Shown: positions 4,676-46,904 of the stretch, piece after piece
Numbering within the stretch: position 1 is the first letter of the stretch
Layout: the number at the start of each line of letters is the position of its first letter
Assembly: GCF_900091475.1 (NCBI RefSeq)
Contig: NZ_FMIB01000002.1
Span: 5,952,001 to 6,016,000 of the forward strand
Length of the DNA stretch: 64,000 nt
DNA from: Micromonospora chersina
GTDB lineage: Bacteria; Actinomycetota; Actinomycetes; Mycobacteriales; Micromonosporaceae
Reading direction: 5' to 3'
Position numbers and translations under genes: made by a program
The notes under the pieces: generated by a model
Told to the model about the DNA's origin: nothing
Seen by the model: the letters and a program-made list of their open reading frames with translations, nothing else
Database searches by the model: none

Positions 4676-5098
<423 letters not shown>

Positions 5099-45217: not shown

Positions 45218-45329
45218 CGCCGGTCGGTGGCCGTCGATGGACCTCGGGCGACCGCCGTCACGCCCGGAACCATGTGACACCGGACACCAGCCACCAGAAA
45301 TCCCCGTCACACGGGCCGGGGACGGGTGC

Positions 45330-45335
45330 TAGCGT
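45330..45335 (+). promoter_or_regulatory. -10 element TAGCGT of the T-box leader
   Basis: TAGCGT lies ~6 nt before GCAGAGCTGCG, the first structured bases of the T-box. No clear -35 is visible. Confidence 0.5.
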
Positions 45336-45340
45336 GCCGG

Positions 45341-45617
45341 GCAGAGCTGCGACGGAGCCGAGTAGCGCGCCGACCCGCCAGCGCAGAGAGCCGCCGGTTG
45401 CTGAGAGGCGGTCTGGCGCCGGTGCGTGAAGACCCTCCTGAGCTGCGGGAAGAACGGCGGCCTGGCTGCTCAGTAGACCCCGCCCGGCTGGCCCCGGTGA
45501 AAAGGCGACGAACGAGGCTCCCGCTTCGCGGGAGCGAAGGTGTGGTGGCACCGCGAGGCTCCCGCTCGCCCACACCTCCCGGGGATCGCGTTGCGATTGA
45601 CCAAGGAGGTAACCGCC
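45341..45617 (+). promoter_or_regulatory. T-box riboswitch, translational type, Asp specifier
   Basis: The leader of ~277 nt holds all parts of a T-box. Stem I carries the S-turn pair AGTA (45361-45364) and GAA followed by the specifier GAC (45431-45433), an Asp codon. Stem III is GCTCCCG/CGGGAGC (45517-45535). The T-box GGTGGCACCGCG lies at 45544-45555, with the UGGC acceptor-binding bulge at 45546-45549. AGGTGTGG (45538-45545) can pair with CCACACCT (45570-45577). Alternatively ACCTCC (45574-45579) can pair with the ribosome site GGAGGT (45605-45610). The two helices exclude each other, and no U-tract follows, so control is probably of translation by uncharged tRNA-Asp. Confidence 0.88.
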
Positions 45618-46904
45618 GTGCAACGCATCCTGTCCTCCCAGCTCACCCACCATGTCGGCGCGACCGTGCGGATCGCCGGCTGGGTGCACCGCCGCCGGCT
45701 GCTCAAGTCGGTGGCCTTCCTCATCGTCCGGGACGCCGCCGGCCTGGCCCAGGTGGTGGTCACCGACCCCGCCGTGCGCGCGGCCGTCGAGTCGCTGCCC
45801 GAGGAGACCGTCGTCGAGGTGGTCGGCACGGTGGTCGCGAACGCCACCGCGCCCGCCGGGGTCGAGCTGGCCGAGCCGACGGTACGCCCACTCGGCCCGC
45901 CCGCCGTCCCGCCGCCGTTCGACCTGTACCGGCCGGCCCTCACCGCCACCCTGCCCACCCAGCTCGACCACGCGCCAACCGCGCTGCGCCACCCGACCCG
46001 GTCGGCGGCGCTGCGGATCTCGGCGGCGGCGGTGGCCGGCTTCCGGGCCGCCCTGGACGCCCGCGGGTTCGTGGAGATCCACACCCCGAAGGTGGTCGCC
46101 TCGTCCACCGAGAGCGGGGCGAACGTGTTCGCGCTGGACTGGTTCGGCCGGCCCGCGTACCTGGCCCAGTCGCCGCAGTTCTACAAGCAGCTCATGGTCG
46201 GCGTCTTCGAGCGGGTGTACGAGGTCGGGCCCGTGTTCCGCGCCGAGCCGCACGACACCGTCCGGCACCTGGCCCAGTACACCTCGCTCGACGTCGAGCT
46301 GGGCTTCGTGGCCGACCACCGGGACGTGATGGCCGTGCTGCGGGAGACCCTGGCCGGGATGCTGGCCGAGGTCGCGGCACGGGCCGGCGGTGCGCTCGCC
46401 ACGCTCGGGCTGACCCTGCCGGAGGTGCCCGCCGAGATCCCGGCCGTGCACTTCACCGAGGCGCTGAAGATCGCCGGGGCGCCGGCCGACGAGCCGGACC
46501 TCGCCCCGGCCCACGAGCGGGCGCTGGGGGAGTGGGCGCTGCGCGAACACGGCTCGGACTTCCTGTTCGTCACCGGGTACCCGATGGCGAAGCGACCGTT
46601 CTACACCCACCCGGACCCGGCCCGGCCGACCCACTCCAACGGCTTCGACCTGCTGTTCCGGGGGATGGAGCTGGTCACCGGCGGGCAGCGGCTGCACCGG
46701 CACGAGGACTACCTGGCCGCCCTGGCGGCCCGCGGCGAGCCGGTCGAGCCGTACGCCGGGTACGTGGACGCGTTCCGGCACGGCATGCCGCCGCACGGGG
46801 GCTTCGCCATCGGGCTGGAACGCTTCGTGGCCCGGCTCACCGGCGCGGCCAACGTCCGCGAGGTGACCGCCTTCCCGCGCGACCTGCACCGCCTCACGCC
46901 CTGA
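45618..46904 (+). CDS. aspS: Aspartate--tRNA ligase, archaeal/nondiscriminating type
   Basis: This 428-residue class IIb synthetase has an N-terminal OB anticodon-binding domain (GATVRIAGWVHRRRLLKSVAFLIVRDAAGLAQVVV, quoted in parts: GWVHRRRLLKSVAFLIV) and class II motifs: QSPQFYKQLMVGVFERVYEV, motif 2 in VFRAEPHDTVRHLAQYTSLD, and motif 3 in GGFAIGLERFVARL. The GMELVTGGQRLHRHEDY block is like archaeal AspRS. It lacks the bacterial GAD insertion, so it is ~160 residues shorter than bacterial AspRS. It may charge tRNA-Asn as well as tRNA-Asp. The GTG at 45618 has AAGGAGGT 7 nt upstream, and a T-box leader with an Asp specifier precedes it. Confidence 0.9.
   Translation: MQRILSSQLTHHVGATVRIAGWVHRRRLLKSVAFLIVRDAAGLAQVVVTDPAVRAAVESLPEETVVEVVGTVVANATAPAGVELAEPTVRPLGPPAVPPPFDLYRPALTATLPTQLDHAPTALRHPTRSAALRISAAAVAGFRAALDARGFVEIHTPKVVASSTESGANVFALDWFGRPAYLAQSPQFYKQLMVGVFERVYEVGPVFRAEPHDTVRHLAQYTSLDVELGFVADHRDVMAVLRETLAGMLAEVAARAGGALATLGLTLPEVPAEIPAVHFTEALKIAGAPADEPDLAPAHERALGEWALREHGSDFLFVTGYPMAKRPFYTHPDPARPTHSNGFDLLFRGMELVTGGQRLHRHEDYLAALAARGEPVEPYAGYVDAFRHGMPPHGGFAIGLERFVARLTGAANVREVTAFPRDLHRLTP

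Follow-up and report, generated by a model that had tools for sequence, protein, structure and literature searches.

A T-box leader before a second aspartyl-tRNA synthetase gene in Micromonospora chersina, and the varied stems of its relatives

The window analysed here, a stretch of 64,000 nucleotides from Micromonospora chersina, carries at positions 45340–45576 a T-box leader in front of a second aspartyl-tRNA synthetase (AspRS) gene, aspS2. Judged by its own sequence and by those of its relatives, the leader is very probably (probability roughly 0.88) a translational T-box riboswitch reading tRNA-Asp, and the original prediction of such a leader at this gene is supported; that the leader senses charging and makes AspRS2 inducible, as was also proposed, we infer. 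Its features are collected in Table 1.

Table 1. Parts of the aspS2 leader and gene, in window positions.
Feature	Position	Strand	Basis and details
Stem I, long form	45340–45446	+	RF00230 alignment, sequence; AGTA 45361–45364, distal AGAGAG...GCTGAGAG region
Specifier GAC (Asp)	45431–45433	+	Sequence; GAC in 200 of 203 related leaders; GAA 45428–45430 just 5′
Base 3′ of specifier, C	45434	+	Sequence, counts, literature; T-boxes are described with a stacking purine there
Stem II	45445–45483	+	RF00230 alignment, sequence; S-turn strands AGAA 45451–45454 and AGTAGA 45472–45477
Region corresponding to the stem IIA/B pseudoknot	45484–45513	+	Position in family model; pseudoknot pairing putative
Stem III (GCTCCCGC TTC GCGGGAGC)	45517–45535	+	RF00230 alignment
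Antisequestrator	45539–45576	+	45539–45545/45570–45576 and 45553–45557/45565–45569; covariation, 51 leaders
Antisequestrator bulge UGGCACC	45546–45552	+	UGGC at 45546–45549
Anti-Shine-Dalgarno ACCTCC	45574–45579	+	Complementary to 45605–45610; overlaps 3′ arm of antisequestrator
Candidate second start-site helix, GCGTTGC	45588–45594	+	Complementary to GCAACGC 45620–45626 at the start codon; tentative
Shine-Dalgarno GGAGGT	45605–45610	+	Sequence
aspS2, 428 aa, GTG start	45618–46904	+	NF003483, 534.7 bits; best solved relative 1n9w

The leader and its gene

The T-box family model RF00230 aligned end to end with the leader at 62.6 bits (E = 2.9e-13), as anticipated by the original prediction, and the leader was recovered at E = 8.3e-13 in a search of the whole genome. 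Because this score lies below the Rfam gathering score of 93 bits, the leader is absent from the default Rfam scan of the window, which reported RNase P alone; in 14 control genomes, RF00230 gave a match in 10 and reached the cut-off in just 2. That RNase P RNA lies at 4684–5094, scores 287.1 bits and belongs to bacterial class A. The genome's sole other RF00230 match (L077, G000:C2:5657402–5657495) is partial, scores 20.4 bits and precedes a gene that we take to be ileS-like; by eye, its short stem I carries ATC.

The AGTA and GAA motifs, the GAC specifier and the T-box with its UGGC bulge, all named in the original prediction, are present in the sequence, and its two mutually exclusive helices lie essentially where they had been placed. 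With a long stem I and a stem II that has an S-turn, the leader has class I architecture, and the specifier in stem I agrees with the gene that follows, as in a T-box. The distal region of stem I carries what we take to be the motif typical of an elbow-contacting double T-loop. Free-energy folding of the full leader gave no excess stability (z = 0.90) and was left aside as evidence.

By its matches to models of archaeal-type AspRS (aspartate–tRNA(Asn) ligase), the aspS2 product is a second, archaeal-type aspartyl-tRNA synthetase, as had been proposed: it matches NF003483 well above the cut-off of 353 bits and reaches 342.3 bits with TIGR00458, short of the cut-off of 368.4. Its best solved relative is annotated as aspartyl-tRNA synthetase 2 and termed non-discriminating in the PDB, and the closest named AspRS2 proteins are from Micromonospora (98% identical). 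A His and a Pro in the product align with W26 and K85 of 3nel, presumably the T. kodakarensis enzyme, at positions that we take to decide tRNA-Asn charging. The enzyme is probably non-discriminating and may charge tRNA-Asn too. The genome has four PF00152 loci, namely aspS2, the bacterial AspRS and two LysRS-like proteins, so that no AsnRS was found among them; GatB is present. AspRS2 occurs in 77 of 101 same-family genomes, and in 291 of 354 genomes when divergent and broken copies are included. The bacterial AspRS is found in 99 of the 101, including all 77 with AspRS2, and AspRS2 is therefore a supplement.

In the window, aspS2 sits between lipA and nadE, neighbours that do not support a role in antibiotic resistance, and this role was set aside. 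Elsewhere, three AspRS genes 37–38% identical to the window's (L259, L260 and L261; from two genomes of the same genus and a g29 genome) have no T-box motif in the stretch examined. Wider stretches were taken for them as L264 and L265; in L264, the AspRS gene is flanked by two MFS transporters, with an ABC-2 membrane protein close by and an APH-like protein about 5 kb away, a neighbourhood that would suit a self-resistance enzyme; the divergent, T-box-less genes L259–L261 may, by sequence, be such enzymes. Two further AspRS genes, L075 (also L262) and L180, are just 38–40% identical to the window's and nevertheless stand behind a T-box that, with its GAC and stem II, closely resembles the leader of the window, which would point either to a gene exchanged under a kept leader or to a leader that moved.

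Conservation, fit to tRNA and the proposed switch

For comparison, 219 loci with an AspRS2-like start were aligned, sampled from only part of the genomes with a match. Eight distant homologues (L181–L188, 33–35% identity), in which the T-box motif is absent, and two loci ending before the start were set aside, leaving 209 with upstream DNA. The T-box motif was found in 203 of these, corresponding to 196 distinct leaders, as some genomes occur in two collections; it stands before 73 of 75 same-family loci and before loci of other families. The six loci without it are L024, L093, L179, L240, L241 and L243, the last four with an uncertain start codon. The specifier does not vary, in keeping with the conserved GAC that was expected of orthologues: GAC is found in 200 of the 203 leaders (161 with a long and 39 with a short stem I), the remaining three have lost stem I, and AAC occurs at the specifier place in none of the 200 labelled with stem I. 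A codon scan of the hairpin loops of short-stem leaders ranked GAC first of all 64 codons (31 of 35 distinct regions), followed by TGA (29) and ACG (28), both overlapping GAC. Among 25 short representatives, GAC lies in a hairpin loop in 21 (shuffle mean 8.9, maximum 17, 300 shuffles), and four fail this strict hairpin test.

The genome's own tRNA-Asp has anticodon GUC, which fits the GAC specifier, and discriminator G73, which fits the UGGC bulge (among the 203 leaders, 184 have UGGC and 19 have UGGT). The fit to the discriminator base that had been pointed out thus holds for G73 of tRNA-Asp, but it is not Asp-specific: tRNA-Asn of this genome likewise carries G73, so a C opposite G73 cannot tell the two apart. 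As read from the sequences, it is the specifier, not the discriminator, that separates tRNA-Asp from tRNA-Asn.

The switch helices were examined in 51 leaders. For the antisequestrator, 96.9% of cells were paired, compared with 35–62% in slid versions, 6 of 12 pairs were changed on both sides (a number reached by 2 of 500 shuffles), and the covariation score was reached by none of 500 shuffles. For the ACCUCC/GGAGGU helix, 87.3% of cells were paired, compared with 43–58% when slid, and covariation was not above that of shuffles, as expected since one strand is the Shine-Dalgarno (SD) sequence. In these alignments, it is covariation that speaks for the antisequestrator, and complementarity for the SD helix. 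The two helices overlap at 45574–45576 and are hence mutually exclusive. In scans of 45250–45700, the single terminator-like site lay on the minus strand, the plus strand gave none, and no promoter-like site of the sigma-70 type was detected. Both GCGTTGC and GCAACGC are present in 63 of 143 leaders and neither in 59; 6 have just the leader part, 4 of these pairing through G-U, and 15 have just the ORF part. Potential pairing at the start codon is common, not general, and might tentatively be read as a second lock on translation.

From the parts, their conservation and the logic of their pairing, we infer tRNA binding, a switch and its physiology as follows. Uncharged tRNA-Asp would pair through its anticodon GUC with the specifier and through its free 3′ end, G73-C-C-A, with the UGGC bulge, holding the antisequestrator; as this occupies part of the anti-SD, the ribosome site would be left free and the second AspRS made. 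With charged tRNA-Asp the bulge would stay unfilled, ACCUCC would pair with the SD, and translation would be off. The bacterial AspRS would serve as the standing enzyme and AspRS2 as an on-demand supplement, and across relatives changes of architecture are accompanied by a change of the base 3′ of the specifier.

Two other readings of the window leader were weighed against a translational switch reading tRNA-Asp. A T-box that reads tRNA-Asn, or both tRNAs, in front of a non-discriminating enzyme feeding asparagine synthesis by GatCAB would suit the match to the aspartate–tRNA(Asn) ligase model, GatB, the lack of AsnRS among the four PF00152 loci and the shared G73, and a publication title names a two-codon T-box binding two tRNAs; this reading is nevertheless very improbable given a specifier that is GAC in every leader with stem I and AAC in none, and on this ground the Asn reading was rejected. 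Attenuation of transcription in place of an effect on translation has in its favour that a long stem I with stem II is the class I architecture, which is described as generally transcriptional. We give it equally little credence, as the SD forms one side of the helix competing with the antisequestrator, the anti-SD/SD pairing recurs in the 51 leaders, and the terminator scan of 45250–45700 gave nothing on the plus strand. The preferred reading thus remains translational control by tRNA-Asp.

Stem architectures and the base after the specifier

The 203 leaders were labelled by architecture, by pattern and eye and with the hypothesis known, stem II being called absent where its S-turn was not recognised. 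A long stem I with stem II was assigned to 116 leaders (C after the specifier in 113, A in 3), a long stem I without stem II to 42 (all A), a long stem I with reduced stem II to 3 (A), a short stem I with stem II to 7 (G in 6, A in 1), and a short stem I without stem II to 32 (G in 25, A in 7); in 3, stem I is lost. At 143 of the 203 loci the divergent upstream neighbour is lipA, with no lipA match in the examined stretch of the other 60. Among the lipA-adjoining leaders, a long stem I is joined by stem II in 91 and lacks it in 25, a short stem I is joined by stem II in 6 and lacks it in 18, and stem I is lost in 3. A tree was built by a quick method from 143 of the 203 proteins and has good support at 55 of its 140 inner branches; on it, at least 9 changes are needed for stem I and at least 9 for stem II. 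By these labels, both stems have been repeatedly swapped or lost at the same locus.

The 42 long leaders without stem II share with class II a linker in its place, and their specifier is GAC in place of the glycine specificity of that class. The 32 short leaders without stem II share with class III a specifier in the apical loop (codon scan; three folded), and no stem II with S-turn, a further class III trait, was recognised in them by pattern or eye. Ab initio folds, with the specifier arms as expected, show L019 with a three-way stem I that includes a specifier hairpin, L054 with one long hairpin and L174 with a small one; the fold z-scores of the three folded leaders were −2.55, −1.32 and −0.90. 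Covariation is weak inside the short groups, and within the Catellatospora group it says little because the helices there hardly vary. When RF00230 was run against 14 test leaders at E up to 1, three were found and all 11 with a short stem I were missed, so that Rfam-based surveys may undercount short T-box switches.

Several loci show single steps of such change. In L161, L162 and L164 (Nonomuraea and relatives), stem II is reduced to a hairpin with the former S-turn letters in its loop, and A follows the specifier; sister loci with full stem II carry C. In L168, the distal part of stem I is seemingly deleted, the specifier lies in a six-base loop, CAGACA, and stem II is kept; its sister L170 is long. 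A palindromic insert (of the type AAGGAAGGG...GGTAGAG...CCCTTCTTAACA) was seen by eye in the stem II loop region of six Micromonospora loci, L003, L093, L107, L119, L145 and L155. Beside it, stem I is lost in L119, L145 and L155, and in L093 the T-box is gone and GAGGAG is left.

The base 3′ of the specifier was compared with architecture. C follows the specifier in 113 of the 116 long leaders with stem II and in none of the 84 others with a specifier, in all of which a purine stands there; the three exceptions (L046, L058 and L059; stem II, A) form one group. Treating the presence of both a long stem I and stem II as the trait gave 6 independent contrasts on well supported branches and 10 on all. 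In the base contrasts (6 pairs), on average 5.9 agreed, 0.0 disagreed and 0.1 showed no difference (sign test, median p = 0.031, range 0.031–0.0625). Within long stem I alone significance was not reached, since just 3 or 4 contrasts were available. The opposite strand differs as well, reading GGAGCC in 93 of the 113 leaders with stem II and C and GGAACC in 22 of the 42 without stem II, and no simple Watson-Crick partner for the base was seen in the 5′ strand. A separate locus, L258 (G606, 1062–1953), holds a broken aspS2 with a frame change near residue 62 and no match past about 211; in its leader most of stem II is gone while C still follows the specifier, and this leader was left out of the counts.

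According to a review (PMC7583486), a purine after the specifier stacks under the codon-anticodon helix and stem II partly relieves the need for it: A102U in glyQS, where stem II is absent, abolishes binding, and A19U in N. farcinica ileS, where stem II is present, costs 2.4-fold. The aspS2 leaders show, at the level of sequence, the pattern predicted by this idea. A stronger statement, that natural evolution made stem II and the purine interchangeable and that C is tolerated only with a long stem I and stem II, we regard as evenly balanced between true and false.

How far these patterns reflect function can be questioned in two ways. The correlation of stem II with the base could stem from shared ancestry: both base groups are dominated by near relatives, the contrasts are few (six on well supported branches, three or four within long stem I), the labels were not blind, and the difference in the opposite strand leaves room for other causes. 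This is doubtful, though a real concern, as no contrast runs in the opposite direction, the sole case found with a long stem I, stem II largely gone and C kept is the pseudogene's leader, and the published mutants agree with function. The short leaders without stem II could likewise be decayed relics or misread, as their weak covariation, their being missed by Rfam and their modest fold z-scores would allow. We consider this unlikely, and a little more so than the former, as they keep the T-box motif with GAC mostly in a hairpin loop, precede a long AspRS frame, fall into several separate tree groups and, in L019, L054 and L174, fold with the specifier arms.

Comparison with known systems

The open-access literature covered, as search listings and passages of PMC1262725, PMC7778990, PMC7583486, PMC10482949, PMC10651847, PMC9437257, PMC2494555, PMC3766115, PMC12452182 and PMC4206432, made no mention of a T-box before an actinobacterial aspS. 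The actinobacterial T-boxes described in the literature covered stand before ileS and also histidine genes, which bears out the view that one for aspS is unusual, but with 73 of 75 same-family loci preceded by the motif, the leader of the window is not an isolated case. PMC10482949 distinguishes four classes: the first combines a long stem I and stem II, the second has a long stem I, lacks stem II and is glycine-specific, the third has a short stem I and requires stem II, and the fourth is intermediate. As worded there, short leaders without stem II and Asp-specific long leaders without stem II fall outside all four. According to PMC7583486, there is hardly any binding by a truncated stem I when stem II is missing; a few translational T-boxes with a long stem I are mentioned there, so the combination of long stem I and translational action alone is not new. 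The grips of T-boxes on tRNA were worked out on a few glyQS and ileS RNAs. The aspS2 leaders, with one gene, one specifier and a long or a short stem I that each occur with and without stem II, provide matched natural constructs for testing the resulting model, including the combination that it says should hardly bind. Micromonospora and its relatives are makers of natural products, and in them a second AspRS would stand under the sensing of tRNA-Asp.

Thermus thermophilus AspRS2 (1n9w), the best solved match, is likewise an archaeal-type second AspRS, and we know of no T-box association for it. The aspS T-box of Clostridium acetobutylicum resembles the present system in standing before an extra aspS, one of three such genes (PMC2494555); it is reportedly, by the titles of publications, two-codon and linked to tRNA-dependent amidation, whereas the window has a lone aspS and a single GAC. 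With class I T-boxes (B. subtilis tyrS type), the leader shares a long stem I and a stem II with S-turn, and it differs in being predicted to act on translation and in carrying C, not a purine, after the specifier. Like class II T-boxes (glyQS type), 42 of the 203 aspS2 leaders have a long stem I and a short linker replacing stem II; unlike that class, described as glycine-specific, they read Asp and are predicted to be translational. Class III ileS T-boxes (Nocardia farcinica, M. tuberculosis) share the sequestration of the SD and, with the short-stem aspS2 relatives, the specifier in an apical loop; they differ in reading Ile where Asp is read here, and the window leader has a long stem I with the distal motif. 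Finally, class III is described in PMC10482949 as requiring stem II, whereas some relatives of the window leader carry their specifier on a short stem I without it.
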